In this document: one piece after another, positions 1-20,791 of the stretch
Layout of the letters: each line of letters starts with the position of its first letter
Position numbering within the stretch: position 1 is the stretch's first letter
Virus record (IMG/VR): IMGVR_UViG_3300047300_000682
Coordinates: 1 to 20,791 of that record
Origin: a virus
Direction: 5' to 3' (one strand)
Length of the DNA: 20,791 bases
The notes under the pieces: model-generated
What the model was told of the DNA's origin: nothing
Databases searched by the model: none
The model's input: the letters and a program-made list of their open reading frames with translations, nothing else
Program-made: the position numbers and the translations under genes

Positions 1-3000
1 CTTGGCAACAACCTTAGCGTAAGGATTCTGAGAGCCTCCAAGTTCATTCACATACGACATCTTGCGAGCCTTGTTGTACTCTTGGATACGCTGGTTCTTG
101 GCGTTGTTGACGATTTCCCAAGCAGGTGCTGTCTTGGTCATAATAGCCATAACAGGTTTTTCACCGCTTGTCTGGACTACTGTAGACCTATAGGACTTGT
201 GAAGATTGCTATCAACCTTCTCTGCGATAGGACTCTTAATCTTGATTACCGCATAGGCGTGACCCTTAGGTACATTCCTAATCATCGGCTCGGCAAGCAG
301 GTCACCGAATACACGATTGGCTTCAGCGGCTGTGAACTTGCTTGTCTTATTGGCATTCCAAGACTGACCTCCAATAACCTCACGCATCTTAAGGTAGGCG
401 TTTCCGCTTACTTCCTTAGACTTTGCGATTCTAGCAAACAGGCTTTCGATAAAGAGTTTTCTGTTCTCGAAACTATGCTGAGGAAGTTCATCGAGAGCCT
501 GAGTCATAATATCCTTATACGACTCTGTTTCATCGAACGAAATCTTCTGCTTGTCAGTTCCCTTCTTCTTTCCAGAAACAAACTGCTCGTTGGATGCGTC
601 AATCATATGCTGTCTGAGCGTCTCAGGACTCATCGCACCCTTATCTACAAGGTGGTCTAGAATCTGAAGAACAGACCTAGTACCAGTAGGGCTTTGGAAA
701 ATCTTGTCGTTATCAGGCTTAACCAATGTGATGAACGATTCAGGCTTTCCGAACTTTCTGCCATTAACCTTGATAGCCTCATTCATCCACTTGACCAAGA
801 CAGATGATTCTCCTTCTCCAGCAAATGTGCTAGCCCAGAAGTCAGCGAGGTCTCCGTGAAGCATATGGAAGAACATACCTCCCTGAAGGTTCTCGACTGT
901 CTTTGTGCTAATCTTCAGGTCTCCGACAGCCATAGTGTCGGCTGTGTGGGCGATGCCTTTCAGTTTACCGATTTCAAGACCCTTATAGGAATCGCTCAGT
1001 TCAATCTTCTTTGCCGCAATGCCTTTCTGTAGGAGGTCAGCACCGATGTTTTGAACTAGTACGCTTGGTGTTCCTGCTGTCGTAGGTGTCGTGTCGTCAG
1101 ACTTGAACGAGAGTCCTAGGTCGCTACCAATACGGACTCCCTTGCCACGGGGCATAGACTCCTGAAGAGGATATCTGATAGCACCTTGGTCTTGGTCAAG
1201 CAAGGCTCTGGTAGCCGTGTCAACTCTGTCCATACCGATGTGCGTGTCGATGATAGCCGTGTTGTCCTTGACCTTGTCAGCCATAACAACGAAAACAGTA
1301 TCGGCACTACCGCCATCGTACACATTCTTGATGATAACGCCATCGTGACCGCCAGCCCTAGCCTTATCAAAGATTTTCTCGTATTTAGCCCCGTCAAAGC
1401 AGTTGAAGCCGTAGTCCACAACGAACGGGTTGTTGAACTTGATGGCGGCTCTGACCTGACGATAGCCTTGCTCGCCCTGCATAGGGTCAGCATAGCCGAA
1501 CGAGGTCTTGGTCTCGCCTGACAGGAACACACCGACCTTATCCTTGTCGCTCATATGACGAGAGCCAAGTTTGCTGGTGTCGAATTCCCTAGAGGTAAGC
1601 AGTTCGTTTGAACTTGTTCCGTGCGTAGCGACTGTGGTAACAGGCTTGCCAGTCTGGAACTGGGCATCGTACTGCTCGCCAAAGAACACCTTAGCCATAT
1701 TGTCATAGCCAACGCTTGTGCGTCTGTGGGTGTTGATATAGTCGAGGATAACCTGTCCGTCACGCTTGCCGCCCTTTGTGGCTCTTCCGTATGCAAGTCT
1801 GATGTCGTTATATCTCTGCAACAGGGCTGTCACATTCATCAGTTCCTGACGCTGGATTTCACGCTTAATTCCCTTTTCTTTGGAAGCGTAGAAAGCATCC
1901 TCCATTTGCTCCTTCATCTTCTGAATCCTATCCACACGAGCCATAATAGCCTCGGTAGCATTCAGTACTGTCTCAGGGTCTGACTGACGGAGTTTGATGA
2001 AGTTATCGCTATAGAACTCTTCACGGGTCTGACGGATAAGTTCAGTACCAGCGTGGAAAGCCCTTCCTGCGTCAGTCTCAAAGATGTCTCCAATCCTTCT
2101 TCCTTCGGCAAGAGTGTTATCATCGAACACCTTGAAGTTCTGCTGTTGCTTCTGTTGGCTTTCAATGACCCTTACGATACGCTTTTCTGTTTCGGCTCTA
2201 TCAGCAGTATAAGCCTTCTCCATAGCAACGCTGGCGGCTTCCTTGTCCTTGAATGAACCAATAACCTCCCCGTTGTTGCTGAAGAGTTTGCTAGCACCAT
2301 TAGCGTCTGACACAATCTTATATCCTGATGCGTGTTTGAAGATATCGCCATTAGGAGTGCGTTCAGACTCCATATCAGAGACCTTGAAGTTTCTGCTGAG
2401 GTCGCTATGAGCGTTGTCGAGATTGAAGTCGTAACGGGTAGGAAGGTCGCTCCGCATAGGAGACATCAAATCCATACTGAAGTTTGTGACTGTTGATGTC
2501 TTTCCTCTTGGAATCTCAGCGATAGGCTTATTGAAGTATGTGGCACTTTCACGCTTAGCCATACCAAGGAACTGGTGCATCACATTTCTACGCTCAGCAC
2601 CAAATCCGTCTCCACGGGCAAGTGACGGAATAAGTGAGGATTCAACACGGGTGTTATCCGTGCTAGCCTTGCTAGCGTTGCTTAGGTAATCAAAGAACGA
2701 CTGGTCAAAGGCGTTTCTATCGCCCTGCCAGAGGTCTCTAACCGCTTGGTCAGCCCAGAGGGTATTTCCTCTAGCGTCGATGACATTCTTGTCTAGTCCT
2801 TTCATAACAAAGGACATAGTGCCATCTTTCTTAACAGAAATCTTGTATCCAACGACAATCGTATTTCTGGCTGTAATCGGAACATCAGCACCATACAGGC
2901 GAGGAGACCTCGGCCCAACTTGCGTTTCCATCGACTCCCCGTGGTAGAGATACGAGACAACATTAGAGCCTGTACCGCTGGTGATTTCTTGGATGGTCTT

Positions 3001-5739
3001 GATTCTGTCAGCAAGGATTTGAGTGATGTGACCTTCCTTGACAAGATGAGCCAGCATCGTGTCGTTGAACTTAGTTCCAAGAGTGCTTGAAGCGACAAAG
3101 TTTCCATCTACATCTACAAGACCAGCAACATCCTTAGGGTCGAGTTTAGATAGAGATTCGTGGATAGCCTTGCCTACAGCGAGACGCTCCAATTTAACTT
3201 GAGCCTCTGTGACAGCCCTAGGTGCTCCGTTCTTGTCAAAGAAGAACCTAGTACCATCCATACCGCTACTTTCAAAAAAAGCCTTGCGGGACTCAGGAGA
3301 CATAGTTCTTACATCAACGCTATTAGAGCCTCCCTTGTTTCTTCCACCTGCGGCACGGAGCAAGTCCTGCACAGCGTAGTCGATAGCGGAACTCCGTTGG
3401 GCGAGCGTTCGCTTTCCGTTATTAGGAGCAAATGACTTGTCAAACGATTTCGTAAAGTCACCGAATGTAGGATTCTGCTTTGTTATATTAGCCTGCCAGA
3501 AGTCCAAGAAACTGTTCTGGACTCTGTCCATCATACCACGAATGCCTTGAAGTTCTCCCCCGTGGAAGAGATAGTCAAGGGGCTTGCCCTTCATAAACTG
3601 AGTGGCGTAGTGAGCACCGAACTCTTCAACAATCTTATCCAAGGCACGGGCAGAGTCAGGATTCATCTTTGTCGTAGCACCAGCCTTCTGGTACTCGGCA
3701 TAGTGAGCATCAAACTCAGCGATACGCTTCTTGACTTCAGCAACAGGCAGTTTATTCCCGTTAGCATCTCTAGTATACATCAGTTCTCTTCTGACAAACT
3801 GTCTTAGTTCAGTAGGGTCAACTTCAGAGCCTCTGATTCTGACACCATTTGCATCGAACTCGCCAAGGATAGCCTTAGCAAATTTATCTCTGAACATACC
3901 TTTCATAACAGTCTCGGCAAAGACTGCGTGGAAGAGTTCGTGGTGCATTACATTGTTGCTCTTGGCTTCCGTGTTGATATGTACTGTAATCTGACGCTTT
4001 CCAGTAGCATCCATATCTGTGTACATCACGAAACCTTCTCCACCCCTGAAGGCATCAGCACCAGCCGCAAACTCTACAGGGAAACCCTTAGCGTCCAGAA
4101 TCTTCTTTCCTGTTGCAGGGTCAACCTTATGACCATCGAGGTCAAGACCCCTGCTTCTCAGGAGTGCGACTTGGTCAGCGTGGTTACCAACAACAAGTCT
4201 CATATCAGGAGCAATGCGGTCAAGACCAGCAATGACCTGCAAAGCACCAGCCCTGTCGCCATTAAGCGTAGCAAGCGTAAGATACGCCTCCGTAGCCTTA
4301 TAGTTCGGATGGTTCGTAGCCTTCATACTTTCGACCACAAAACCACCTTGAACCTCAGCCCTAGCCATCATAGTACCACCAGAGATGTCAGCAAAAAGCC
4401 TGCCAGCACCAGCACCGACACCGCCAAGGGCGATACCAGCACCAATGCCGTGACCAAGACCTTCTTCACCTCCGCTGAGGTAGCCAAGAGTACCACCGAT
4501 AGCCGCCCCGTGAGCCGCTCCACCAGCGATGCCATAGCCATAGGAGAACATCGGGTCAACCGCATCAAGCACCTTAAGGAGTCCTTTAGCGTGAGCCGAA
4601 AGGTTAGGAGTCTGAATGAGAGCCTCTCTAGCAAAAGAGTTAAATCCTCTCTTGCCGCCTTGCTTAAGCATCTGTTCACCAACAGCACCAATAGCCTCTC
4701 CAATACCGACAGCCGCACTACCTGCGACATAGGCATTAGAGACGGATGAAACAACGGGGATATGACCACCAAGGGCTGAAGCGGTAGTAGTTCCGACAGC
4801 CGACATTCTGGCTGTAGCCTTCAGTTCAGCCGCAGAGATTCCAGTAGCCGTTTCAAGGACATTGCCACCAACAGCGACAGTCTTATCAATCACATTTCTA
4901 GTAGCAGAGCCAAGGAACTCAATAGGAGCACCGACACCCCACTTAAGACCACCACCGATAACAGCACTTTTAAGTTGAGCCGCACGACCACCAAGGGCAA
5001 CAAGTTTCTCGCCCATACCAACAGCCCTCATACCAGCAGTAGCGGCTTGACCAAACGGAATGAACAGGGTAGGGTCAGCAATATAAGACATCGCAAGCGT
5101 CATATCGTGGTCGATGACATTCTTGTCCATAATGATGGTGTCTTCTCCAGAGGCTAGTCTGGCTGAGTGTTTATTGAACTTACGAGCCTCTAGGAACTGG
5201 TTGTACCCTTCAGGACTACCATCACCAGCGATAGCGTTCTTGAAGCCAAACAAGACGCTGTTAGGATTAGAACTCTGAGCAACCATACCATACAGGTTGC
5301 GTGTACCCTGAGCAAAGGCTTCAATGAGCGATGTAGGGGCTGTAGCCAGAGCCTTCATCGGGTGGTCAGCAACAGCACCGACAGCCCTTCCAAAGTCTCC
5401 AAGAACAGCACTAGCACCAGCAGAGATACCCTCAAGGATGCTTGACTCGTGCGTCTTGTTATAAGCGACATACTTCAGGTATTCGTCCTGAGTAGGTATG
5501 AAGTCCATATCCTGCTTGAGAGCCTCTGCGACATCTTCACCCGTCATAGGGGCGTTGATTCTGTCAATAGCCGCTTGGCGTTCAGCAGGGTCTAGAGAAT
5601 CAAGATACTGAGTTGTCTGCTCGTCAAACTGCTGACCTTCGCCAATTTGATTAGCGTAAGCCTGCTGAGGCTGTTGGGCAAGGAATTGCTTGCGTTCTTC
5701 TTGACCAATCGGAACGCTATTGTCATAGAGATTATCCAT
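1..5739 (-). CDS. Giant polyvalent ejection protein (HEXXH peptidase + ART-like), 3' partial
   Basis: The frame is open from ATG at 5739 to the left edge: 1,913 codons without a stop, so the C-terminus is missing. Residues about 95-455 contain several Ala/Gly-rich hydrophobic stretches, densest at 400-455, which could insert into membrane. Residues 599-604 read HHELFH, an HEXXH zinc-peptidase motif (H600, E601, H604). EEFGAHYA at 705-712 may give the third ligand. Residues about 1370-1495 resemble the ART-PolyVal family: HGTSS at 1373, GVFLSG at 1403, FNNPFVVDY at 1435, GHDGVI at 1464, then a final beta strand. The rest resembles other phage large polyvalent proteins. It lies one base after the 813-aa gene, in the place T7 gp16 takes after gp15. 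I infer a virion protein delivered with the DNA that modifies or cleaves host or virion proteins. The domain calls are motif-level; neither activity is shown. Confidence 0.87.
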   Translation of the reverse strand, partial: MDNLYDNSVPIGQEERKQFLAQQPQQAYANQIGEGQQFDEQTTQYLDSLDPAERQAAIDRINAPMTGEDVAEALKQDMDFIPTQDEYLKYVAYNKTHESSILEGISAGASAVLGDFGRAVGAVADHPMKALATAPTSLIEAFAQGTRNLYGMVAQSSNPNSVLFGFKNAIAGDGSPEGYNQFLEARKFNKHSARLASGEDTIIMDKNVIDHDMTLAMSYIADPTLFIPFGQAATAGMRAVGMGEKLVALGGRAAQLKSAVIGGGLKWGVGAPIEFLGSATRNVIDKTVAVGGNVLETATGISAAELKATARMSAVGTTTASALGGHIPVVSSVSNAYVAGSAAVGIGEAIGAVGEQMLKQGGKRGFNSFAREALIQTPNLSAHAKGLLKVLDAVDPMFSYGYGIAGGAAHGAAIGGTLGYLSGGEEGLGHGIGAGIALGGVGAGAGRLFADISGGTMMARAEVQGGFVVESMKATNHPNYKATEAYLTLATLNGDRAGALQVIAGLDRIAPDMRLVVGNHADQVALLRSRGLDLDGHKVDPATGKKILDAKGFPVEFAAGADAFRGGEGFVMYTDMDATGKRQITVHINTEAKSNNVMHHELFHAVFAETVMKGMFRDKFAKAILGEFDANGVRIRGSEVDPTELRQFVRRELMYTRDANGNKLPVAEVKKRIAEFDAHYAEYQKAGATTKMNPDSARALDKIVEEFGAHYATQFMKGKPLDYLFHGGELQGIRGMMDRVQNSFLDFWQANITKQNPTFGDFTKSFDKSFAPNNGKRTLAQRSSAIDYAVQDLLRAAGGRNKGGSNSVDVRTMSPESRKAFFESSGMDGTRFFFDKNGAPRAVTEAQVKLERLAVGKAIHESLSKLDPKDVAGLVDVDGNFVASSTLGTKFNDTMLAHLVKEGHITQILADRIKTIQEITSGTGSNVVSYLYHGESMETQVGPRSPRLYGADVPITARNTIVVGYKISVKKDGTMSFVMKGLDKNVIDARGNTLWADQAVRDLWQGDRNAFDQSFFDYLSNASKASTDNTRVESSLIPSLARGDGFGAERRNVMHQFLGMAKRESATYFNKPIAEIPRGKTSTVTNFSMDLMSPMRSDLPTRYDFNLDNAHSDLSRNFKVSDMESERTPNGDIFKHASGYKIVSDANGASKLFSNNGEVIGSFKDKEAASVAMEKAYTADRAETEKRIVRVIESQQKQQQNFKVFDDNTLAEGRRIGDIFETDAGRAFHAGTELIRQTREEFYSDNFIKLRQSDPETVLNATEAIMARVDRIQKMKEQMEDAFYASKEKGIKREIQRQELMNVTALLQRYNDIRLAYGRATKGGKRDGQVILDYINTHRRTSVGYDNMAKVFFGEQYDAQFQTGKPVTTVATHGTSSNELLTSREFDTSKLGSRHMSDKDKVGVFLSGETKTSFGYADPMQGEQGYRQVRAAIKFNNPFVVDYGFNCFDGAKYEKIFDKARAGGHDGVIIKNVYDGGSADTVFVVMADKVKDNTAIIDTHIGMDRVDTATRALLDQDQGAIRYPLQESMPRGKGVRIGSDLGLSFKSDDTTPTTAGTPSVLVQNIGADLLQKGIAAKKIELSDSYKGLEIGKLKGIAHTADTMAVGDLKISTKTVENLQGGMFFHMLHGDLADFWASTFAGEGESSVLVKWMNEAIKVNGRKFGKPESFITLVKPDNDKIFQSPTGTRSVLQILDHLVDKGAMSPETLRQHMIDASNEQFVSGKKKGTDKQKISFDETESYKDIMTQALDELPQHSFENRKLFIESLFARIAKSKEVSGNAYLKMREVIGGQSWNANKTSKFTAAEANRVFGDLLAEPMIRNVPKGHAYAVIKIKSPIAEKVDSNLHKSYRSTVVQTSGEKPVMAIMTKTAPAWEIVNNAKNQRIQEYNKARKMSYVNELGGSQNPYAKVVAK

Positions 5740-5740
5740 A

Positions 5741-8182
5741 TTATCTTCTCTTGTTAGCCTCGATTCTGGCTTGCTGTTCAACAGATTTTACATCACCTGC
5801 TGTGGGAGCAAATGTAACTTGAATCCCTGCGTTGTTGTTCTTAAGAGCCATTTCGTTAGATTTTAGCAGACCTTCTAGGGTTTGCTTACCTACGATGTCA
5901 AGGGCAAAGAAAGCAGTAGGGTCAGCGACACGCTTCTGGAGCATTTCGTGTTCAGCGATGGCAATCGGGCCAGTTCCAATAGTTTCAAGACGAATAGCCG
6001 CCTTGAGTTGCGTGATAAGAGACCTTGCAGTTCCCCAGTCTTCGTTCGGAATGAGGGTTCTTCCAAGTTTGTCCTTCTTGTACATAGCAAGAAGTTGAGG
6101 AACGATGGTGCGAATCTTTACAGTATCATCGTGAAGTTGCAGGAACTTCTCGGCATTCTTTTCGCCACCTTTAACAAATCCAGCAAGTTTGATGCCAGAA
6201 CCCTTTGTACGCTCTTCAGGAACAATTCTATTACCCTGCACAGTTCCATAGCGATACAGAGATTGCTCGCTGATTTCCTTGTCAGACATACCCTTTTCAG
6301 GCTTAACAGGAGCGATGTATTGAGCACCCTTGGAGGTAATCATAACCTGACCGCCATCAGGGGCAGGCATAAACTGTACATCGGTCTCAGGGCGAATTGA
6401 GCGATAGACAGCGTCAAGAGATTCAGGAATGACTCCACCCCTGTTCTCGATAAACCACTTCCTGACATATTGCTTTTCTTCTGCATATGTCATATCACGC
6501 TCAGTCGGAACATCTGTCTTGATTCTCGTATTAAAATCAAAAGGTCTTGCAAGAGTTTCAGCGTATGATGGCTTTTGTTCAGCAGTCTTTCCAACACCAA
6601 CAGTTGAAGGCTTAAGTTCAGCAAGAGTCTTTGCCGTAGCAGTAGCCTTAGTTCCAGCAGAAACAGCCTGACTTCCAAGTTCCTTATTCAGTTGGTACAT
6701 CTGGTCAGCCGTCATAGGCGTATCCATAGGAATGCCTAGTTTTTGAGCCGCTTCTGTTACATTCTTCCCAGCGTCTGAGTATCTTGAGGGAAGTTTAATT
6801 TTTCCATATCCACCACCAGAATATCCAGTATATGTTTCTACAGATGTAGGATTATTCTGGATTTCAAAAGAGTTAATGCTTCTTGCGATATCACCAACTG
6901 TGATGTTGCCACCACTTCTAATTGTTTCTTCAAGCGTCTTTTGTGTATTCTTGATTACAGACTTAGCAAACTCAGCAACAGCCGCATCTTCAGCGGTCTT
7001 AGGCTTAATTTCTTTAACCTTACGCTCAGCAAGAATCTGTTCGATAGGTCTTGTGTCCTTGTCATCTGTATAAGATTCAGGCTTAATAGACTCAAGTTCC
7101 TTTTCTCTTTTCTTGATAGACTTTTCAAGTTCAACTCGCTTAGCGTGTGTCTCGCTTAGAGACTCTCCAGTCTTTTTCCCATAACCAAAACTAAAGGTTT
7201 CATCAAGAGCCGCCTTGTCTTTTTCAATAAGACTTTCAGCGTCTTTGACAGCCTTTTCATACTTTTGTTTACCTGTAAGAAGAACTGGGGCTTTAGCAGT
7301 ATCAGAAACAGGAGCAGTAGTTGTCTTGCCAGCCGCTTTTTCAGCCGCAAGTTTCTCAGCAGTAGCCTGTGAGAGTCTTGTATCTACGGCAGATGTAGTA
7401 GCACCAGCATAAGCCTCGGCTTCCTTGGCGTAGTCTGTAACTCCAGATTCATCTGTAGCGGCATTTCCAGCAAGATTCTTCCAATCTGAAAGACCCCTTA
7501 GAATTGTATCTCTGAATTTAGGGTCTGTCTTAGCAAGGTTTGGGTCTGCTGAAAAAGCGTTAGTCCAGCCATCAGCAATCTGATGAAGAGCACTTTCTGT
7601 ATCAAGACCAGACAATTTAGGGTCATTCTTCTTTGTGAGTTCGATGTATTCTCTGTTGTTCTGGATGTTCCAGTCAGTACTCTTGTCAGGCTGAAACGGA
7701 AGAGCCTCAATTGTGACACCAAACTTATCGCTAACCTTAGGTTTAGCATCAAGGGCAGATTGAACTCCCTGTCTAGTTCTGCTGACATTGCCCTCCTTGA
7801 AGATGGCAAGAGCGGGAGCAATGTTGGCTTGGAAGGCTTCAGCCTCAAGCAGGAGAGCCTGCTTCTGAGCCTTAGACATCGTTTCAAATCCACCAATCTT
7901 CTTGAGGATAGGGTCGAACGATTCTGCAAACGGAGCAAGTTCAGGGTTTTCCTTGATTTGCTTAGTCAGGAACTCAAAGTTTCCAGCAAGACCCTGAGCC
8001 TTGGCTGTAAGCAGTTGATTCTCCTGCTCATTCTTAGCATAAGCCTTGATGCCCTCAGCAAGAGTATTGCCTAGGTTGGCAAATGTAGCAGAGGTCTGCT
8101 GAGCCATCTGACCATAAGCAGACACGAGATTTCCCGTGGAAGCCTCAATACCGCTTTGATATCTTTGAAAAGGAGAAGCCAT
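5741..8182 (-). CDS. Putative internal virion / ejection protein (gp15-like position)
   Basis: An 813-aa soluble, mostly helical protein with no signal peptide or membrane segment. The N-terminal 120 residues are Ala/Gln-rich helices. Residues about 270-430 are highly charged, Lys/Glu-rich and probably coiled coil. The last ~140 residues contain a helical segment with EHEMLQKRVADP, of a kind I recognise from C-termini of phage injection and other virion proteins. It sits between a 280-aa gp14-like and a >1,900-aa gp16-like gene, with 3-bp and 1-bp gaps, which supports an ejectosome role as in T7 gp15. No enzymatic motif is visible. The start is ATG at 8182 with upstream AAATAATTT and no clear Shine-Dalgarno. 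The coding call is secure; the function rests on order and composition. Confidence 0.85.
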   Translation of the reverse strand: MASPFQRYQSGIEASTGNLVSAYGQMAQQTSATFANLGNTLAEGIKAYAKNEQENQLLTAKAQGLAGNFEFLTKQIKENPELAPFAESFDPILKKIGGFETMSKAQKQALLLEAEAFQANIAPALAIFKEGNVSRTRQGVQSALDAKPKVSDKFGVTIEALPFQPDKSTDWNIQNNREYIELTKKNDPKLSGLDTESALHQIADGWTNAFSADPNLAKTDPKFRDTILRGLSDWKNLAGNAATDESGVTDYAKEAEAYAGATTSAVDTRLSQATAEKLAAEKAAGKTTTAPVSDTAKAPVLLTGKQKYEKAVKDAESLIEKDKAALDETFSFGYGKKTGESLSETHAKRVELEKSIKKREKELESIKPESYTDDKDTRPIEQILAERKVKEIKPKTAEDAAVAEFAKSVIKNTQKTLEETIRSGGNITVGDIARSINSFEIQNNPTSVETYTGYSGGGYGKIKLPSRYSDAGKNVTEAAQKLGIPMDTPMTADQMYQLNKELGSQAVSAGTKATATAKTLAELKPSTVGVGKTAEQKPSYAETLARPFDFNTRIKTDVPTERDMTYAEEKQYVRKWFIENRGGVIPESLDAVYRSIRPETDVQFMPAPDGGQVMITSKGAQYIAPVKPEKGMSDKEISEQSLYRYGTVQGNRIVPEERTKGSGIKLAGFVKGGEKNAEKFLQLHDDTVKIRTIVPQLLAMYKKDKLGRTLIPNEDWGTARSLITQLKAAIRLETIGTGPIAIAEHEMLQKRVADPTAFFALDIVGKQTLEGLLKSNEMALKNNNAGIQVTFAPTAGDVKSVEQQARIEANKRR

Positions 8183-8185
8183 AAA

Positions 8186-10615: not shown

Positions 10616-12223
10616 TTAGTATTTAGATTGGTTAGTCTTGTTCTGAACTGTTGCATAGACAAATGCAGACCTGATTGAAGGTCGTAGGTTATTCGTGGTG
10701 AATAGCAGTTGAATTCCAGACCCTATCTTTCTGATGGGGTTTCTTCTGGTTGAGTCCTCTGTTGTGCTGAATCCGAATGTATCAATTACAGCCGTAACAT
10801 CAGGGTTAACAACATCTGCCGTAGTAACAACTTGAGAGCCAGCATCAGAGACCATCTCCACCTCAGCGGTGCTAAATCTCTTATCTCCAATGCTGTTAAA
10901 TGAATAGCGTCTTGTTTTCAGAATTCCATTTATTTCAACAGACGCAAATGAGGCGGCAGACAATGTCTCAGGTATGTAGAATGGAAGCAATGGAGTTCCA
11001 GTAGCCGCTCCATACTCATCGTGATTAAGTTGCTCCATCAGGAAGATGCCTTGGTCTGTATCGACTCCATACATCCGTCTCTGATTATCCTTCTTGGCTA
11101 CGACAAAGTCAAAAACATCGAATCCAGCAGGATAGGTGTCAACGGACTCCCATTGTCTTAGGATGAAGTTATATACCAGAACAGCATTATTATCGACAGA
11201 GGAATCAAGCGGAACGGCAAGATAATATCTGTTGTTCCAGTAGGTTGCAACAGCACGATGAGCGTAAGTGCGATTGATTCGTTGAATGACATCGTCAATA
11301 GGGGCTGAGATAGGTTCAGCCATAGTAAGCAACTTCATTGACTCCGCTGATGCAGGCTGAGGTTGCAGGAAGTACACGCCATTATCAGACAGGAAGAATA
11401 CGCCTCCATTAGCCTGAACAACGCTCTTCTTGGCAGAACAACCGACATCGGTAGCCAGCGTCTTTACATACGAATCATTGGCAAGAGCGTCACCGCTGAC
11501 ATATCTGCTAGTTCCAACGCTGATGTAGAATATGCTGTTACGCATAAACACCAAGAACTCATTGAGAGTCCAAGGAGCAACACCAACCACTCTGTCATTA
11601 GAGCCGTTATTAATCGTAAAAGCGTCAAGAGCATCAAAGGACTGATAGTCCAAGAAATTGCTCACGCAGATTGTGTCGTTGTTTCTGAGCAGGTTTGTCT
11701 CCGAATGATACTTGCCTGTGACGATGAATCTATTTGCGTAGTAAAGGATGCTCTCGCAGTTTGGGAACTCCTTGTCCAGTCCAGCGATGCTAAATGCAAC
11801 AATAGTGGTTGCCATATCCCATCGTAGAGGACGCTTACTAAAACCACGGGAAATGATAACCACATCAACAGCCGCAACAACATCGCACCCGTCTTGTGTT
11901 GTAATGGTCTCTCCAGAGGGAAAACTGACCTTTGCAGACAGAAGTTCAGTCTGCGGGTTATATGTGTAAAGACCATCGCTAACTACAGCAATGATAATTT
12001 CCTGCCCTCCATTACTGATATATGTGCCTACTCCATAGATAGTCTGACCTACAAGAGCACCAACTGTCTTTCTTTGAAGACCCTTACGGACAGTAGCAAC
12101 GCCTCTGTCCATCCTAAAGTTCTGAGACTGGCTAACAATACCTTGGGGCAAAGCACTAGGATTGTCACGGCTATTAAGCCCGACAAATGCTAGGTCTCCA
12201 TCCTTCTGGTATTCATTAGGCAT
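10616..12223 (-). CDS. Tail nozzle / hub-like protein
   Basis: A 535-aa beta-rich protein without membrane segments. The opening (GLNSRDNPSALPQGIVSQS, then NFRMDRGVATVRKG) matches a pattern common to podoviral tail proteins in which a site-defining NPxxLPxGxxxxxxNxxxxxGxxxxRxG segment precedes beta-propeller-like repeats. Later segments such as FIVTGKYH, FLVFMRNSIFYIS, GVFFLSDNGVYFL and NNRYYLAVPL look like blades. Proteins of this kind form the tail tube end or nozzle (compare T7 gp12 or P22 gp10 in role). It starts at ATG 12223, whose A is shared with the stop of the 35-aa membrane peptide (TAATG), and is followed by the fibre gene, fitting the site where fibres attach. The exact homologue would need profile alignment. 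Confidence 0.85.
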   Translation of the reverse strand: MPNEYQKDGDLAFVGLNSRDNPSALPQGIVSQSQNFRMDRGVATVRKGLQRKTVGALVGQTIYGVGTYISNGGQEIIIAVVSDGLYTYNPQTELLSAKVSFPSGETITTQDGCDVVAAVDVVIISRGFSKRPLRWDMATTIVAFSIAGLDKEFPNCESILYYANRFIVTGKYHSETNLLRNNDTICVSNFLDYQSFDALDAFTINNGSNDRVVGVAPWTLNEFLVFMRNSIFYISVGTSRYVSGDALANDSYVKTLATDVGCSAKKSVVQANGGVFFLSDNGVYFLQPQPASAESMKLLTMAEPISAPIDDVIQRINRTYAHRAVATYWNNRYYLAVPLDSSVDNNAVLVYNFILRQWESVDTYPAGFDVFDFVVAKKDNQRRMYGVDTDQGIFLMEQLNHDEYGAATGTPLLPFYIPETLSAASFASVEINGILKTRRYSFNSIGDKRFSTAEVEMVSDAGSQVVTTADVVNPDVTAVIDTFGFSTTEDSTRRNPIRKIGSGIQLLFTTNNLRPSIRSAFVYATVQNKTNQSKY

Positions 12224-12509: not shown

Positions 12510-12511
12510 AG

Positions 12512-13489
12512 TTAGATAGAATAGAAGCCTCCAGAACCATCCCAGTACCAGTTGTATGTTCCATCGTTATAGATGTAAGTTCCGTAGGGGTAGTAGAATT
12601 GTCCGCTGTATTGATAGTATCCACCAGCACCATCCCAGACATACCTATCTCCACTCCATTGGTCGTAGTAGTAGTTTCCACTACCAGAAGGAACTTCTTG
12701 GTTACTTCCAACACCAGTATAACTGATGCTATCAAAGATGATAGTTCCGATTGTGACATAACTTCCACCAGTACCAGTAGTATAACCGCCAGAACCATCG
12801 GCAACATATGTATTATAAAGTCCGTTGTTATAGAAGTTTCCACTCATTGACGGAACTTCTGTTGTCAGATTAGAACCATTGGCATAGAAGTAGCCCGTTG
12901 CGTCAGGGGTAAACCCTCCTGCATCCATATTGTATGAGCCACCAGAGCCATCGTGGAAGTAGTCGTATCCGTCAATAACTCCATTGTTATAGTACATACT
13001 GCTACCAGACGGAACTTCAATAGAACCAGCCCTATGAGCATTAGGTACATAAGCAATGAATACACCTGAAGAAGTGAAACTATTTACGATGTTAATATTC
13101 GTATAACCACCAGAGCCATCGTGAGCAACATCAGCAGTAAATGTACCAGACTGATAGTCGTTTCCATTGATGTTTATTGTATAAACGCCAGATGTGGCAG
13201 AGAATACAGTACCATATGACTTCCAAGCCAAGTCTCTTACATTAGACCAGTTAAGGATTGAGCCACCAGCACCATCGGCAATAATGTCTACTGTGACAGT
13301 CTGAGTCGGGTAGTTAGTAGAGTTATAAGTGAAATAAGCACCGCCCTGAGCAATAGGATACTCATACCCATAGTTCGTGGATATGACTGTACCAAACGGA
13401 GGGTACACAACTGCACCGCTTATGACGCTAACTTGGAAAGAGCCTGTGCCAAAGCCGTCTCCAACTATACTGGAGAGTCCGACTCGCAT
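12512..13489 (-). CDS. Gly/Tyr-rich repeat protein, putative structural or adhesin-like
   Basis: A 325-aa protein of low complexity dominated by Gly, Ser, Tyr and Asn. The motif DG(S/A)GG occurs six times, at residues 72, 124, 180, 231, 286 and 317, so five copies are spaced 51-56 residues apart and the last is 31 further on. A second marker, EVPSxS followed by an aromatic pair and often NNG, recurs at 158, 211 and 265. The C-terminal ~60 residues are very rich in Tyr and Trp. This suggests tandem beta modules, as in solenoid or beta-hairpin fibre domains. It lies between the 100-aa beta protein (TAATG overlap) and tail genes, so a surface-exposed virion protein is plausible. No signal peptide or enzyme motif is seen. 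I do not recognise a named family. Confidence 0.82.
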   Translation of the reverse strand: MRVGLSSIVGDGFGTGSFQVSVISGAVVYPPFGTVISTNYGYEYPIAQGGAYFTYNSTNYPTQTVTVDIIADGAGGSILNWSNVRDLAWKSYGTVFSATSGVYTININGNDYQSGTFTADVAHDGSGGYTNINIVNSFTSSGVFIAYVPNAHRAGSIEVPSGSSMYYNNGVIDGYDYFHDGSGGSYNMDAGGFTPDATGYFYANGSNLTTEVPSMSGNFYNNGLYNTYVADGSGGYTTGTGGSYVTIGTIIFDSISYTGVGSNQEVPSGSGNYYYDQWSGDRYVWDGAGGYYQYSGQFYYPYGTYIYNDGTYNWYWDGSGGFYSI

Positions 13490-13791
13490 TACACTTGGGC
13501 GTAGGCGATATGGACTGTAGTTCCAGCGGTGTCTGAAATGGCCTGAACAGCACCATTGTAGTTCTCAAGGGTGCAGGACTGATTAGGCTGAAGTTCAAGA
13601 CCAACTGAGCCAGATGTGGCAAATACCACTTGGACAACAGCCGCATTATCCTTGTTCTGAACAACTAGAATGACACGCTTGTCATAAGGGTTGGTTGTAG
13701 GAGCAAGAATCTGAACGGGAGAAGTTCCGACAGTCACATCTGAGTGCGTGAAGGACTTTGTGAAGGGTGTTGAGAAGACGATATTAGCCAT
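13489..13791 (-). CDS. Small beta-rich virion protein, 100 aa
   Basis: 100 aa, almost entirely predicted beta strand: SPVQILAP, then KRVILVVQNKD, VVQVVFAT, LELQPNQSCTLE and TTVHIAYAQV. The pattern 'normalise value - NxxxKRVxLxVQN - strand - G - strand - TxVxIAYxQ' is common in small phage structural proteins with a jelly-roll or Ig-like fold. It sits one base after the adaptor gene and overlaps the repeat-protein start (TAATG). It could be a head-completion or capsid decoration protein, or a base for the repeat protein encoded next. No enzymatic residue is apparent. The gene call is firm; the role is inferred from fold appearance and position. Confidence 0.8.
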   Translation of the reverse strand: MANIVFSTPFTKSFTHSDVTVGTSPVQILAPTTNPYDKRVILVVQNKDNAAVVQVVFATSGSVGLELQPNQSCTLENYNGAVQAISDTAGTTVHIAYAQV

Positions 13792-13792
13792 T

Positions 13793-14922: not shown

Positions 14923-14930
14923 CCTGCGGA

Positions 14931-15959
14931 TTAGGCGGTGAAGTCAAACACCCCGAAAGCGAGGGGGTTGTAGACGCAAAGTCCAGCAACCGCTTCAATC
15001 ATTCGGGCTTCGCCACCACCAGAGTTCGGGAGAGCCGTCACGCCAGCGACATTGCCGCCATAGCGAACTTCGACTTGGTCAAACGGGATGACATAGCCAA
15101 CGAATGTCGAGCCAACGCCAGCGGAAGCCTTCAGGTAGTGGGACGGGTGGAGTCTCAACTTACCGAAATCGCCCTCGAAAATATCGACAGACGAGATGTA
15201 AGCGGACTCATTCGACTCACGATTGAAGGTACGAATGGCGGTCTGAGTGTTGGCAGAGCCAGAGGAGGGAGTCGTGAACACGAGGTTCGTGAACGCTCTC
15301 TTCAGGGCAGTACCGCAGAGGAGGTCGTAGTCCTTGAACTGACCAGTCTGTGTGTAGATACCCGTGAGGACATCCTGAACGACAGACTCAGTAAGGGCGG
15401 CAGTACCGACAGTCGAGCGATTGGCGGTAGGTGTGCAGAACTGGTCGATGACAGGAAGGGTTGTGTCCTTAGAGGCAATCGGTCTGAGCCACTTGTGGAG
15501 ACCACGAGTGAGGTACGGGAGTGTGCCGTTGTCAGCCTGAGCACCATTGTCGGAACAGAAGGTCGCTTCCATATCACGCTTCAGGGCTTGGATGCCCTTA
15601 GCGACATTGTTAGCGAGTTCGTCACGAACACCAGCAACAGTCGAGATATCCTGCGTAAGCGGGGACACACGGACAGAGCGTCTGAAGACTTGGATGTAGT
15701 TCGACAGTTCAGCACGATACTGAGTCGAGCCATCCTTGGTGTAGTTCTCATAGGTCGAGACATCCGTGCCGTCAACTGTACCAGTTGTCTTCGGCAGAGG
15801 GAGAGAGTCAGCCTGCCATCTGAAAAGAGTATTTCCAGGCTTGCTGCCCTTCTTAGCCATCGAGGTGAACGGGGTATCCTTGGCATCAACGAGGGCGATG
15901 AGGTCAGCAAGGTCTTCTCTCTTACCAGATGAGAAGGAAGGTTCTGTGAGGTTAGCCAT
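14931..15959 (-). CDS. Major capsid protein, SU10 type
   Basis: 342 aa, the subunit of the icosahedral head. The N-terminal region SGKREDLADLIALVDAKDTPF followed by about a dozen residues and LFRWQADSL is the signature of the SU10-like major capsid family, an HK97-fold group: a 'REDL..li...D.kDTPF.s' arm, then a strand before a W/D pair. The central part (QDISTVAGVRDELANNVAKG, then LKRDMEATF) forms the long spine-helix region, and the C-terminal half is beta-rich. It follows the scaffold-like gene by 25 bp and precedes neck genes. There is no N-terminal propeptide cleavage site that I can see. The start at 15959 has an A/T-only leader (TATATACTTAT) and no Shine-Dalgarno, which is striking for what should be the most highly made protein. 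Confidence 0.93.
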   Translation of the reverse strand: MANLTEPSFSSGKREDLADLIALVDAKDTPFTSMAKKGSKPGNTLFRWQADSLPLPKTTGTVDGTDVSTYENYTKDGSTQYRAELSNYIQVFRRSVRVSPLTQDISTVAGVRDELANNVAKGIQALKRDMEATFCSDNGAQADNGTLPYLTRGLHKWLRPIASKDTTLPVIDQFCTPTANRSTVGTAALTESVVQDVLTGIYTQTGQFKDYDLLCGTALKRAFTNLVFTTPSSGSANTQTAIRTFNRESNESAYISSVDIFEGDFGKLRLHPSHYLKASAGVGSTFVGYVIPFDQVEVRYGGNVAGVTALPNSGGGEARMIEAVAGLCVYNPLAFGVFDFTA

Positions 15960-15984
15960 ATAAGTATATAGGTTTTAGGGGTGA

Positions 15985-16995
15985 TTACAGGAATCGGTTA
16001 GCGATTATGACGGAAAGGTCATCTCTTGAATTCGACGCAGTAAAACGCTTCTGGGCTTGTTGCGTCTTCGCATCCTTTGCAGGAACGGGGACGGGGGCTG
16101 AGGAAGGTCTAGGCTGAGACGGGGCTTTGTTGACAACTCCAGAGGGCTTACCTTTGGATTCACGGGCTTTCACGCCAGCGATGTAGTCACCAATCACCAT
16201 CTTGTAGTCAGGGAATTTCTGGATTTCAGGGAAAGCCTTAAGGAAGGTCTCAGCGATTTGTCTGTCTCGTGATGCCTTATCCTTCCACCAAGGGTACTCC
16301 TTGATGGCAACTTGCTCCATCTGATTGAAGTTCTGGAGATACTGCATACGCTTGGGAAGGTGTTCTTCAATCGCATCAAGAGCCTTGATTTTGATGTTTC
16401 GCACTTCTTCAGCGGAGTATTCCACTTCAACTCCATCTTTGCCTGTAACTACTGCTCCATCGGGGTTCATCTCGCACCAGCGTCTGATTTGCTTGGCTTG
16501 GTCAACCTCACGGCTGACTTCTTCAAGCGTAGACAGGTTAGCGTACGGGTTGTCCTGAGTTGGAATCTGTGCTGGCTTGGTAGCCTCTTGCGACAGTCTT
16601 TCCACCTCTGAACGGAGTCGTTCCACTTCTGCTTCAGCCTCCCTGCGTTTAGCAGAGAGTTTGTCGATGCGTTTCTTAACACCTTTGGGCAACCCCCGTT
16701 CAAGTTCATCGTCTTCAGATTTGGTTTCTTCGGTTTCCTCGGAATCTGTGGACTGTTCTTGTTCGGTTGCTGTTTCGGTTTCTTGAGAAAGAACCTCACT
16801 ATCTTCGGAAGTCGCTTGAACTTCCGCTTCAGTTTGCTCCTGCGAGACTGAAGGCTCACTATTTTCCTTACCGCCTAGGAAGGATTCGTTGACGATGTCA
16901 GCGAGTTTATTGATGTCAAAAGCCTGCGGGGTGCTTTCGTTTGTCGTAGCGTTGTTTTGAGCCGTGCTAAGGTCGGCTTGATTTTCTGTAGTCAT
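15985..16995 (-). CDS. Capsid scaffold-like protein
   Basis: 336 aa. Residues 1-100 are disordered and highly acidic, rich in Ser, Thr, Gln and Glu. Residues about 100-145 contain basic and coiled-coil heptads (RIDKLSAKRREAEAEVERLR). A globular helical part follows (YPWWKDKASRD, then FLKAFPEIQKFPDYKMVIGDY). The C-terminal 50 residues are Pro/Ala/Lys-rich and basic (VNKAPSQPRPSSAPVPVPAK), the usual place for coat-binding contacts. An acidic coiled-coil protein with a basic tail directly before the major capsid gene is the normal layout of a scaffold, which guides procapsid assembly and leaves before or during packaging. No protease motif is seen. It is the first gene after the 104-bp non-coding gap and may head its own transcript. 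Confidence 0.87.
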   Translation of the reverse strand: MTTENQADLSTAQNNATTNESTPQAFDINKLADIVNESFLGGKENSEPSVSQEQTEAEVQATSEDSEVLSQETETATEQEQSTDSEETEETKSEDDELERGLPKGVKKRIDKLSAKRREAEAEVERLRSEVERLSQEATKPAQIPTQDNPYANLSTLEEVSREVDQAKQIRRWCEMNPDGAVVTGKDGVEVEYSAEEVRNIKIKALDAIEEHLPKRMQYLQNFNQMEQVAIKEYPWWKDKASRDRQIAETFLKAFPEIQKFPDYKMVIGDYIAGVKARESKGKPSGVVNKAPSQPRPSSAPVPVPAKDAKTQQAQKRFTASNSRDDLSVIIANRFL

Positions 16996-17099: not shown

Positions 17100-17372
17100 T
17101 TACATACCGCTTTCTGACGAACTATGAGGTTCTGAGGGTCTTCCTTGGTCGGCAAGCACATCATTCCGTGTCTGCACAAGTATAGACTTAAAAGCAGTCA
17201 AAGCCTCGGCTCTTCCAGCAAACCAAGCCCTATCTTCACCTCTATTTTCCCTAGAGATGGCTGAAGCGACCTCAGATTCTATAGAGGCATCAAGAAGCAT
17301 ATGGACAGCCTTCCAGAGGTCATTGTTAGCCTCAAAAGACAGTCCTATGATGATTTGGTTAGGGTAACGCAT
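17100..17372 (-). CDS. Small conserved helical protein between portal and scaffold, 90 aa
   Basis: 90 aa. IIIGLSFEANNDLWKAVHMLLDASIESE opens an alpha-helical domain in which a W at residue 20 and a later RAWFAGRAEALTAF segment (48-61) form a pattern I have seen in small proteins encoded between portal and scaffold genes of podoviruses. The last 15 residues are polar and probably disordered. Its ATG overlaps the portal stop as TAATG. It may assist portal or head assembly. No catalytic residues or membrane segment. The function is unknown. Confidence 0.78.
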   Translation of the reverse strand: MRYPNQIIIGLSFEANNDLWKAVHMLLDASIESEVASAISRENRGEDRAWFAGRAEALTAFKSILVQTRNDVLADQGRPSEPHSSSESGM

Positions 17373-19552
17373 TATTCTTGAGGTTGCTGTTCGTTCGCTT
17401 GGTCAATCTGCTGTTGCATCTGTCCAGCGGCTTGCTGAGCAATAGGAGTTACTCCAGTACGACCAATTTGCTTGTTTTGCTGTTGCATAGCAGACATCTG
17501 GAGGTTCTTCATAAAGTTCTCGACAAGAGCACGGAAATGCGGGTCAGTCTGCATCATCTGCTGAGCCTTAGGATTCTTGCTGATAACATCTTGCATATAC
17601 TGCAACTTAGTCTGGGCGGCAGGGTCGTTTTCGACATACTGGGCTTCATTACCAAGCATCATAAGTCCGATGTCAGATTGGATATCCTTATACATCTGTT
17701 GAGAAGCGGATGTCTGATTGATGATGAGTTCCTTAGCCTTGTCAGGGTCAATAGCCTCAATAGCCGCCTTGACCAACTTGTTTTTGTCGATGACACCACC
17801 GCCATCAAGCGGAAGGACGAACTGAGTGATAGCCTTAAGTTTCTCGATGACAAAGTTCGTATCGAGTTCTCGCACATCGTACTTAACTTGGAAATCGTAC
17901 ATATTGCTGACGCTTGAGATGTTCTGAGGAAGTGCTGTTCCAGTAATCTGCTCAATTTCAGCGGAGTCCATATACTGAAGCATCAGGCTGAATGTCATAG
18001 AGAACGCCTCGCTCCACACATCAAGCCAGTTGTTGATAATGAACTGCTGAGTGACCTGCGTCTTCTGCGGCATAATATTAGGATGCGGAATCCCAAAGTA
18101 TGAAGCGTGATTCATCTCGACTCTGTCTATTAGAGAGAATGCCACCTGCTGATTCTGGTCAGTAGGAGCAGGCATAAACTTGTAGTCATCCATCGAGGTG
18201 ACAGGCAGGTGAATTCCGGGGGCAATTTTATTGATGCCGCCAAGTCGCTTCTTGACAAGGATGGGAGGCATCGTGGTGAACGCTGTGCGGTCACGGATAG
18301 CATCGTGCTGAGCCTTGATTTCCTCTTGGTCAGTCATCGCCAGTTCAGGAACACCACGAGATTCCATAATGGCTCTGCGTGTGCGTTCTCTGCGGTAGAT
18401 AACAAACGGATACTTATTGTGAGCGTATCCAAGCAGTCCGTGCGAGGCGTATTCTTCTGTTCCAGCCTGAGGACAGAAGATAGTCTGGTAGATTCCCTGA
18501 ATGCCATCCTTGTCGATGTTGCGACTATAGGCGTACACAAGTTCAATCAGGTTGTCATTACGGGCTACCTGATAGTTAATCAGGGCGGCGGCAGGCAAGA
18601 GATTGGGGTCATTAAATTGCGACTGCATACCCATCGTGTTGATGGCTTGGTTAACGAACGATGCAGACCAATCTTCCTGAGCCGCCATAGAACGCAGTTC
18701 GACTTCCGTCACATAGGTTCTACGGAAGATGACACGAGCCTTCTGAATTTCAATTGTCTCAGGGGGGAACGAGATTTCATCGTACGGCTTGAGAGCAACA
18801 ATGAGAGGCTGGTTCTTGCTGATAAAAGATTCGGGGATTTCGCAGACTCCATTCTCACGCAGTTCCTTGATAGCCTTCTTAACATCCTTAGGGTCAACCG
18901 CCTTGAGGTACATACAGATGAGGTCTGTAGCGTAGTCCTCTTGATTAGGGTCTGCGACAGCCGCAGGCAGGTCTTTGATGGACGAATTCGGATTCATCTG
19001 AACAGCCTGCTGAACAACCTGCATCAGTTCATCCATACGGATTTTCTGGAATCGGATTCCCATCTCCTGCTCCCAAATGACATTAAGAGCAGACCATCCG
19101 TACTGTTGCGTATACTGGCATAGGAGTTCCGCTTCCTTGCGGAGTTCTGACCGAAGACGAGACTCCAAGAGCCAAGCCATAAGGATATTAGCAGTAGACG
19201 ATGACTCAGAGTCGCTGAACTCAGTACCCTTAACCTTGACCTGACAGCGGTCAAAGGTTGTAACGCACATCGACACAAGGTCGTTAATTGTGCGGTCTAC
19301 AAGGCGTGAGCGTACATCAGACGCACCTTCAAACGGAAATGCAGGTTCTCCATCAGGCAGATTTTCGCTGTGCTTCTTGCCATCCTTTGACTGACCTTCC
19401 CACCTAGAGAGACGAATATCATCATTTTCTGCAATATTAGCAGTATTCCCGCCATTTTGAGTAGAACGCTGGTATTCAGAGAAAAGATACTGAATATCAG
19501 GGGTCTCACTAGCAAAGACCATAGGGTCTTGGTTATTTTTGTAAGATTTCAT
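17372..19552 (-). CDS. Portal protein
   Basis: 726 aa, the ring at the capsid vertex through which DNA is packaged and ejected. Length and sequence suit a large podoviral portal. The N-terminus has YLFSEYQRS, RWEGQ and FPFEGASDVRSRLVDRTIND, a pattern shared by portals of SU10- and P22-like phages. The middle part has strands and helices of the stem and wing (e.g. FPPETIEIQKARVIFRRTYVTEVELR), and FVIYRRERTRRAIMESRGVPEL is typical of the conserved core. The final ~80 residues are Gln/Met-rich helix (barrel or crown). The ATG at 19552 lies 20 bp inside the upstream HTH gene and has no Shine-Dalgarno; a second ATG (residue 11, position 19522) is a possible alternative start. Confidence 0.92.
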   Translation of the reverse strand: MKSYKNNQDPMVFASETPDIQYLFSEYQRSTQNGGNTANIAENDDIRLSRWEGQSKDGKKHSENLPDGEPAFPFEGASDVRSRLVDRTINDLVSMCVTTFDRCQVKVKGTEFSDSESSSTANILMAWLLESRLRSELRKEAELLCQYTQQYGWSALNVIWEQEMGIRFQKIRMDELMQVVQQAVQMNPNSSIKDLPAAVADPNQEDYATDLICMYLKAVDPKDVKKAIKELRENGVCEIPESFISKNQPLIVALKPYDEISFPPETIEIQKARVIFRRTYVTEVELRSMAAQEDWSASFVNQAINTMGMQSQFNDPNLLPAAALINYQVARNDNLIELVYAYSRNIDKDGIQGIYQTIFCPQAGTEEYASHGLLGYAHNKYPFVIYRRERTRRAIMESRGVPELAMTDQEEIKAQHDAIRDRTAFTTMPPILVKKRLGGINKIAPGIHLPVTSMDDYKFMPAPTDQNQQVAFSLIDRVEMNHASYFGIPHPNIMPQKTQVTQQFIINNWLDVWSEAFSMTFSLMLQYMDSAEIEQITGTALPQNISSVSNMYDFQVKYDVRELDTNFVIEKLKAITQFVLPLDGGGVIDKNKLVKAAIEAIDPDKAKELIINQTSASQQMYKDIQSDIGLMMLGNEAQYVENDPAAQTKLQYMQDVISKNPKAQQMMQTDPHFRALVENFMKNLQMSAMQQQNKQIGRTGVTPIAQQAAGQMQQQIDQANEQQPQE

Positions 19553-19718
19553 TTAAATATTTGGCAAGGTCGTCACGGAAGTACCTCTTGTGACCACCTT
19601 TGGTGGTGAAAGTCCTGACTTGACCCTTTCTGGCAAGCGACTCAAGCCTTATCCGTCCAATTTTAGCAAAGAGCATCGCTTTTTGACGAGACAAGAGGGC
19701 TGGATAGAAGACTTCCAT
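19533..19718 (-). CDS. MerR/excisionase-type helix-turn-helix protein, 61 aa
   Basis: 61 aa. Residues about 8-56 fit the HTH_17/MerR-like winged-helix pattern: a first helix (RQKAMLFAKI), a recognition helix (RIRLESLARKGQV), then the wing and the characteristic GGHKRYFRDDLAKYL (41-55). Such domains bind DNA as small regulators, recombination directionality factors or terminase-associated DNA-binding proteins. The ATG overlaps the terminase stop (TAATG), and the end overlaps the portal start by 20 bp, so it is made together with packaging proteins. A packaging role (small terminase-like or site recognition) or late-gene regulation is possible. A GGAGG lies 12 nt upstream but is within the terminase C-terminal Gly codons. 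The fold call is good; the role is open. Confidence 0.78.
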   Translation of the reverse strand: MEVFYPALLSRQKAMLFAKIGRIRLESLARKGQVRTFTTKGGHKRYFRDDLAKYLNEILQK

Positions 19719-20791
19719 TAGTATGAACCGCCTCCCCAGCCTTGCATAGCGTCATTGCCCTGATATTCAGGATTCATAGTCATAAGATATCGCAGGCAGT
19801 CTATAGGGTCTTTGGTAGCACCCTTATCTCCGTCCTGACCTGTCCACTCCTTGAGGCAGTAGATAAGGTTTTCACAAGACTCTGAGATATATAGTCTTGG
19901 CTTGTTCAGCGGACTTATCTCCTGATTGTAGTCGTACGCAAAGCCGTCATTAATCATTGCCACGCCTTGTTCGATGCGTACGCCAGCGGCTGGCTGGAAG
20001 TGCATAGGGTTGTCTCCGCTGTCAAGCATTTCTATGAGGGTAGTACCGCCTTCGTCCGTAACAGCCTTAGTGCCTCCTGCACGGGGGTCGATATAACGCT
20101 CCCAAATCTCTTCTCCCTGCTCTAGGTCAAGAATCATCTGCTTGTAGTCAGCCAGAGACCGCCCAGCCCCGTTTCTTTGGGCTGTTCCAGCCTTTCCGTC
20201 AGGGTCGCCAGAGGGCAACGCCCATTCACCATCAGAAGTGTCTGGAAACTCCCTGTAGACATAGATACTGCCGTCCTTGGCAACCCTAGCCCAGAGCATA
20301 AACCAGTTTCTCGCACCAGCGGGGTCGGTAATGAAGTAGTTCGTACCCTCTTCAGGCACATTCTCAGCCTTTACAACATTTATCTCAGGGTTGAATCGTG
20401 GGAATTGAGACCCACTTACATTGTCAGCCCAGCCGTAAGCACGAATCTTGATTTCATACGACTTCTTGCCAGCAAGGGTCTTTTTTAGGTTCTCGAAAGG
20501 ATTGTATGGGTTCAGTTGGCTGTGAAACCACATCACCGCTGACGAACGATTGAACGACTTAGCCTTATACGGCATATGCCCCTTAGGACAGCCCATCACA
20601 TTCTGAGAGTCAGGTAGCAACGGGGCTTCCTTTGTCTCATAAATCTTAGCACCGCTGACATATTCCTTAACAACGGAACTGTAGCCAGAGATAGGAGTAA
20701 ATGTCACTACCAACTTGCCCATACGGGTTACGACACGATAGCGTAGCGTCTCAATCCAGTCCAGCGGCACAAGTTCATCGCACCAGATAAA
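19718..20791 (-). CDS. terL: Large terminase subunit, 5' partial (C-terminal 357 aa)
   Basis: The frame is open to the right edge, so the N-terminal ATPase part including Walker A is missing. The visible 357 aa begin with FIWCDE, which fits the Walker B aspartate plus catalytic glutamate (residues 5-6 of the fragment). TFTP (about 30-33) fits the coupling motif. The nuclease domain follows: ITDPAGARNWF with D156, RYIDPR with D235, and KDPIDCLRYL with D328/D331 match the three acidic positions of RNase H-like terminase nucleases. It cuts concatemeric DNA and drives packaging into the portal encoded just downstream. The stop overlaps the next ATG as TAATG. A GTG at 20770 is an internal codon rather than the true start, since Walker B lies upstream of it. 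Confidence 0.93.
   Translation of the reverse strand, partial: FIWCDELVPLDWIETLRYRVVTRMGKLVVTFTPISGYSSVVKEYVSGAKIYETKEAPLLPDSQNVMGCPKGHMPYKAKSFNRSSAVMWFHSQLNPYNPFENLKKTLAGKKSYEIKIRAYGWADNVSGSQFPRFNPEINVVKAENVPEEGTNYFITDPAGARNWFMLWARVAKDGSIYVYREFPDTSDGEWALPSGDPDGKAGTAQRNGAGRSLADYKQMILDLEQGEEIWERYIDPRAGGTKAVTDEGGTTLIEMLDSGDNPMHFQPAAGVRIEQGVAMINDGFAYDYNQEISPLNKPRLYISESCENLIYCLKEWTGQDGDKGATKDPIDCLRYLMTMNPEYQGNDAMQGWGGGSY

Follow-up and report, generated by a model that had tools for sequence, protein, structure and literature searches.

Why does this stretch of viral DNA contain almost none of most four-base palindromes? The window, i.e., the whole stretch analyzed here (20,791 nt), is the virus record IMGVR_UViG_3300047300_000682, without a larger assembly behind it. 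As judged from its predicted genes, it is a piece of an approximately 43-kb tailed phage, and the major capsid protein (PF17236, E 1e-47) identifies this phage as SU10-type. The phage is aquatic and, in the explanation we favor, belongs to a lytic-type lineage. Open reading frames (ORFs) cover 98% of the window, and every late gene runs on the minus strand (Table 1). Full-length homologues of the very large late protein in relatives measure about 2,600-3,200 aa. The relatives' 535-aa terminase is itself related to the TerL of EBPR podovirus 1.

Table 1. Predicted genes and residual sites in the window.
Feature	Positions	Strand	Basis
Purged stretch, whole window	1..20791		Exact counts and codon-preserving null
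Very large late protein, cut at C-terminus	1..5739	-	Open frame and homologues
Structural-module protein, function unknown	5741..8182	-	Conserved cluster 18; no Pfam match
Head-closure/tail-like structural protein	10616..12223	-	PHROG 3287 and 578
Major capsid protein, SU10 type	14931..15959	-	PF17236, E 1e-47; phrog_1328
Scaffold-like protein	15985..16995	-	phrog_8865, E 4e-5
Portal protein	17372..19552	-	Named from synteny and a weak resemblance to annotated portals
Large terminase, C-terminal part	19718..20770	-	Matches relatives' 535-aa terminase
Residual GGCC (also GGNCC)	2912..2915		Forced by in-frame Gly-Pro (V-G-P-R), large late protein
Residual GGCC/GGNCC	5968..5971		Forced by Gly-Pro (T-G-P-I), ORF 5741-8182
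Residual CCWGG	9841..9845		Forced by Pro-Gly (V-T-P-G-N), ORF 9444-10613
Residual GGCC	13540..13543		No forced dipeptide (Gln-Ala), ORF 13489-13791
Residual CCWGG	15835..15839		Forced by conserved Pro-Gly (S-K-P-G-N), major capsid protein
Single CCGG	18216..18219		Forced by conserved Pro-Gly (I-A-P-G-I-H), portal protein

Words missing from the window and its relatives

The sequence-only reading had reported, by eye, that six palindromic tetramers were absent, that GGCC and CCGG were rare, and that other palindromes persisted. An exact string search over the 20,791 bases bore this out in full. GATC, AGCT, CATG, ACGT, GCGC, and CGCG each occur zero times, GGCC occurs three times (2912, 5968, and 13540) and CCGG once (18216), at the positions that had been read. 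CTAG (48), GTAC (76), TCGA (57), and TGCA (52) are all present, as are AATT (54), ATAT (82), TATA (54), and TTAA (60). A maximal-order Markov model expects 37-120 copies of the missing tetramers. The proposal was to be abandoned if a codon-preserving shuffle gave equally low counts, and this refutation failed: across 400 shuffles that kept each protein and its codon usage, 33-126 copies were expected per missing tetramer (GATC 92, AGCT 126, CATG 55, ACGT 60, GCGC 44, CGCG 33, GGCC 54, CCGG 42), with z from -6.8 to -15.1. None of the 400 came close to the observed counts, and GTAC, TGCA, CTAG, and TATA were at expectation.

The extent of the purge had been understated. A systematic, unbiased search of gapped and degenerate palindromes revealed longer words that are purged as well, with observed/expected counts of 2/31 for GGNCC, 2/33 for CCWGG, 1/50 for GCWGC, 0/43 for ACSGT, 0/31 for CASTG, 2/40 for CGWCG, and 0/42 for GGNNCC. 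The degeneracy is sharp. For the sister motifs GCSGC, ACWGT, and CAWTG, counts are normal or raised; GCSGC is doubled (53/25) where GCWGC is nearly gone, and ACWGT stands at 43/36 against the missing ACSGT. Six-base classes were tested on a pool of the window and three near relatives, in which GRCGYC (0/64), GRGCYC (2/34), TTCGAA (0/36), CTGCAG (0/31), CTCGAG (0/25), and GTCGAC (0/32) were depleted. The scans yielded further degenerate restriction-like words, GGYRCC, CYCGRG, and CTRYAG. With overlaps allowed for, the avoided set comprises about 20 Type-II-like specificities, a count that may still include overlapping classes. In form alone, these words look like Type II specificities, including degenerate positions of the W/S, R/Y, and N kinds; a few of the sites are asymmetric. 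The pattern has the marks of Type II site avoidance, with observed/expected below 0.1, short and mostly palindromic words, and depletion beyond the codon-preserving null.

At least 590 IMG/VR proteins are related to the capsid protein. Where the genome of a relative is complete, it measures about 41-44 kb and has short terminal repeats; its genes include ERF, an endonuclease VII-like gene, DUF3799, and a DnaC/IstB-like gene, and in most cases tRNA arrays. AGCT, GATC, CGCG, GCGC, CCWGG, and GCWGC are absent in nearly all close relatives, which range from 37 to 57% GC, and AGCT avoidance is constant throughout the clade. ACGT, CATG, CCGG, GGCC, GGNCC, ACSGT, CASTG, CGWCG, and GGNNCC are on or off among close relatives. 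On a tree of 116 portal sequences, the fewest changes of state needed per motif ran from 1 (AGCT) to 15 (CASTG). Within a genome the states are near-binary, e.g., CCTGA at 0/111 in G017, 0/85 in G023, and 85/68 in the window. The GC-rich branch (G007, G008, and G019) does not avoid CCGG, GGCC, ACGT, or CATG, and all three genomes lack CTRYAG and CTCTTC; G008 additionally lacks AATT (0/71), ATAT (0/51), TATA (0/44), and CTAG (0/33). In the clade of phage C75C1 the avoided motifs are others and number about six at most. The motif set thus differs among lineages, down to no avoided motif in the distant relatives L276 and L278, the enzymes of the hosts being unknown.

Several observations among the relatives stand apart. 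In the close relative L033, GATC is back at full frequency (44 against 48 expected) with the other avoidances kept, a reversal of a core motif. The asymmetric words CCTGA, CTCTTC, and GAGACC are avoided in some relatives; the pentamer CCTGA is nearly missing in some of G010, G016, G017, G018, G023, G009, and G005, and ATAT and TATA are purged in the GC-rich relatives G008 (L100, L101) and L270. We know of no enzyme for CCTGA and of no Type II enzyme for ATAT or TATA. G017 (L094-L096) contains 53 CATG, none of them within 16,250-34,015, its early-gene and tRNA half, and in G014 (L115-L116) ACGT is missing only within 16,877-24,488. The edges of both blocks lie near gene-module borders, and the mosaic looks like recombination of differently purged lineages or stronger pressure on early genes. 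G002 (L102-L106; 88,287 bases) contains most phage genes twice, with two GGCC regimes, and this IMG/VR contig is probably two related 43-44-kb phages joined by assembly. Arrays of 3-10 tRNA genes were seen in G003, G010, G011, G016, G017, and G022 (L083, L085, L088, L092, L095, L097); nearly all their anticodons begin with T, reading A-ending codons, and the GC-rich G008 has no array. Such arrays might compensate for codon shifts imposed by site avoidance. An ArdC-like anti-restriction protein (ArdcN and zincin domains) occurs in a site-purging subset, G002, G003, G004, G011, and G012 (e.g., L133:12276-13172).

Amino-acid pairs without a site-free spelling

Four amino-acid pairs cannot be written without an avoided word. 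Every spelling of Pro-Gly (CCN-GGN) contains CCWGG or CCGG, every spelling of Gly-Pro (GGN-CCN) contains GGWCC or GGCC, Trp-Pro (TGG-CCN) always contains GGCC, and His-Val (CAY-GTN) always contains CATG or ACGT. The proteins of the window contain 3 Pro-Gly and 2 Gly-Pro, with 20 expected of each. We grouped dipeptide ratios, observed against expectation, by motif state over 133 loci. Pro-Gly falls to 0.11 of expectation in the 70 loci that avoid both CCGG and CCWGG, against 0.57-0.69 with one or none. Gly-Pro stands at 0.04 where the relevant motifs are avoided (42 loci) versus 0.67-0.79 where GGWCC is present, and is intermediate (0.33) where GGWCC alone is avoided, so that avoidance of a single motif does not always leave the pair at baseline. 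His-Val is at 0.04 with its motifs avoided (37 loci) versus 0.58-0.92 with one or none, and Trp-Pro at 0.09 with GGCC avoided (71 loci) versus 0.89 otherwise. The reversed pairs VH and PW showed no comparable depletion across the 133 loci. At aligned positions, avoiders keep 9% of the Pro-Gly found in non-avoiders and 0% of the Gly-Pro and Trp-Pro, whereas AP, GA, PA, and VH are kept in 18-29%.

The sites that remain point to the same pairs. Among the residual CCGG, CCWGG, and GGCC of the window, only the GGCC at 13540 does not lie on a forced dipeptide. The Pro-Gly of the capsid protein is spelled with CCGG in close relatives and with CCWGG in the window, as seen in the alignment, and the CCGG of the portal gene recurs at the same place in many relatives. 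In 14 avoider relatives, residual in-ORF sites fall on Pro-Gly in 17/17 cases for CCGG and 20/20 for CCWGG, and residual GGWCC falls on Gly-Pro in 29/32. These counts are not independent, as many of the sites are orthologous between genomes. In three non-avoiding relatives, 110/750 CCGG lie on Pro-Gly.

Tree-independent contrasts ran in the predicted direction for Pro-Gly (2), Gly-Pro, and His-Val (about 4), with none opposed in Pro-Gly and His-Val, and were mixed for Trp-Pro. On such pairs alone the dipeptide test has too few contrasts and is not significant, and replication was therefore sought outside the clade. Four cultured cyanophages, A-4L, Mic1, Pf-WMP4, and PaV-LD, avoid GGCC and GGNCC, and in all of them Gly-Pro and Trp-Pro are lost and Pro-Gly is far better kept. 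Observed/expected counts of Gly-Pro, Trp-Pro, and Pro-Gly are 0/33, 0/8, and 33/35 in A-4L; 1/36, 0/7, and 18/35 in Mic1; 6/38, 0/8, and 29/39 in Pf-WMP4, where all 6 GGWCC lie on Gly-Pro; and 6/42, 2/10, and 25/42 in PaV-LD. The Microcystis phage Ma-LMM01, checked for the same purge, does not avoid these motifs (GGCC/GGNCC) and has 29/37 Gly-Pro and 9/9 Trp-Pro. We consider it likely that, where a phage avoids both of two complementary specificities, the dipeptides left without a site-free spelling (Pro-Gly, Gly-Pro, Trp-Pro, and His-Val) are almost purged by replacement, that this rule is general and holds in unrelated phages, and that both viral DNA and viral protein can thus reveal the defence repertoire of hosts that are unknown.

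Probable restriction by hosts and competing explanations

The sequence-only reading had offered two causes, a host clade well supplied with 4-bp-cutting restriction systems or a modification-dependent defence. The first is now the best supported, because the words look Type II-like, switch independently, vanish in sister lineages, and recur, differently combined, in cultured cyanophages; the second has found no specific support and is not excluded. We hold it very probable that this SU10-capsid, lytic-type lineage has been shaped by hosts that collectively possess many Type II restriction systems. The purge, its independence of codon usage, its lineage-specific switching, the loss of dipeptides, and the absence of two methyltransferase families from 23 relatives are direct observations; cleavage and everything concerning the hosts are inferred. 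Under selection by Type II restriction, a genome copy carrying a cleavable site would be endangered at entry, and sites would be stripped through synonymous change. Where no synonymous spelling exists, an amino acid would be replaced, as predicted for Pro-Gly (under CCGG and CCWGG), Gly-Pro (GGCC and GGWCC), Trp-Pro (GGCC), and His-Val (CATG and ACGT). The few positions that presumably need the dipeptide, such as K-P-G-N in the capsid and A-P-G-I in the portal protein, would retain the site. The repertoire would follow the hosts, with motifs gained or lost singly between lineages and swapped with gene modules.

A search of 23 relatives for DNA methyltransferases of the families PF00145 and PF01555 found none; no separate search covered other families, several of the records are partial, and the window itself is only part of a genome. 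Within this scope, the lineage has no methyltransferase of its own. The phage might instead encode site-specific nucleases against host or competitor DNA and protect itself by lacking the sites rather than by methylation. Relatives do carry two nucleases, an HNH protein resembling endonuclease VII and a DUF3799/PD-(D/E)XK enzyme, without a methyltransferase of the searched families, and the invariance of AGCT avoidance across the clade would fit. However, these are standard recombination/replication genes adjoining ERF, a 43-kb genome would have to encode about 20 nucleases to cover about 20 specificities, motif sets vary independently between phages of similar gene content, and the same type of purge is found in unrelated cultured phages. 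Avoided sets differ without evident gene change, and no site-specific endonuclease gene co-varying with them was found among the shared ORFs scanned (singletons were not all screened). We regard such a nuclease set as very unlikely. Cleavage of cruciforms, or by EndoVII, was ruled out as a cause, given that TGCA, GTAC, and AT-rich palindromes persist.

Marginally less improbable, and still given little credence, is restriction without classical restriction-modification pairs, in which orphan methyltransferases of the host mark phage DNA and a methyl-dependent (Type IV/IIM) nuclease cuts it. The methyltransferases needed would be equally numerous, with dependent nucleases in addition, and Type IV enzymes mostly recognize loose motifs that would not distinguish a central W from S. 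On the other hand, it cannot be separated from Type II cleavage by sequence alone, and Rusinov et al. noted weak avoidance for modification-dependent enzymes and strong avoidance of GATC (PMC6286503). Removal of palindromes by compositional, mutational, or codon bias, or by an assembly artefact, found no support and is already refuted by the shuffles: z reaches -15 under the codon-preserving null with GTAC, TGCA, and CTAG untouched, the purge appears in many independent metagenome contigs with differing sets, and assembly cannot replace amino acids. All three explanations are weaker than selection by Type II restriction.

When 84,980 species genomes were scanned twice, with the capsid and terminase proteins, no relative that would point to a host was found, and consequently no avoided word has been matched to an enzyme of the actual host. 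The tRNA genes were uninformative as a host clue, matching at 66-80% in plasmids of scattered taxa. Methylomes from Lake Biwa include AGCT and GATC in Thaumarchaeota and GCWGC in Chloroflexi, and none of these organisms has the full motif set (PMC6329791). Restriction repertoires of cyanobacteria are among the richest known, with about 16 systems in Microcystis against a prokaryote average per genus of 2.5 (PMC8262939). About 20 specificities exceed the Microcystis mean, the richest genus we found reported, and so several hosts must have contributed or overlapping classes have been counted. A bloom-forming or filamentous cyanobacterium is a plausible host by analogy, a tentative idea with less than an even chance and untested.

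Comparison with known systems

The avoidance suggests that hosts not yet cultured, with as many restriction systems as Microcystis or more, are sufficiently common in water to have shaped an abundant group of phages. Why some bacteria amass many restriction systems has been stated as an open question, for which a methylation 'memory' was modelled (PMC8262939). Phages that shed sites, so that each system loses value, may provide part of the answer by a different route. Gaps in motifs and dipeptides could also be used as labels, both of the defence repertoire of a host and of recombination, in viral metagenomes.

No close cultured relative of the window phage was found. The nearest annotated relatives are C75C1 (OQ984151) and its kin, with 34% identity in the terminase, 27% in the portal, and 33% in the capsid protein. 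Like the window phage, they avoid GATC, CASTG, CGWCG, GGCC, and CATG. Their motif sets are smaller and different, however; C75C1 does not avoid GCWGC, CCWGG, or AGCT and has a gene annotated as a DNA methyltransferase. The four cultured cyanophages, which show no sequence relationship to the window (they are absent among the listed capsid, portal, and terminase matches), resemble it in their purges. A-4L (Anabaena) lacks GATC, GGCC, and GGNCC, Mic1 (Microcystis) lacks CGCG, GATC, GGCC, GGNCC, CCWGG, and GCWGC, and Pf-WMP4 (Phormidium) and PaV-LD (Planktothrix) have purged multiple motifs. They differ in avoiding fewer motifs, in that none avoids AGCT, and in that their hosts are known.

Restriction-site avoidance in non-temperate dsDNA phages was described by Rusinov et al. 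in 2018 (PMC6286503). Elimination was found in about one in ten viral genomes and, counted by site-genome pair, in 3.9-7.5%; Type I/IIG sites were not avoided and Type III sites very little (PMC6286503). Site avoidance is thus known, and its scale in one lineage and the ban on dipeptides appear to be new: in the literature searched, which left out preprints and most subscription journals, no earlier description of one-lineage breadth, asymmetric words, or amino-acid-pair loss was found. As in the phages of that survey (PMC6286503), short palindromic Type II sites are nearly absent here (observed/expected <0.1) without a matching methyltransferase. Unlike in those phages, a single lineage purges about 20 specificities, some relatives avoid asymmetric words, and amino-acid pairs are lost, extending the reach of site elimination to a price paid in protein change.
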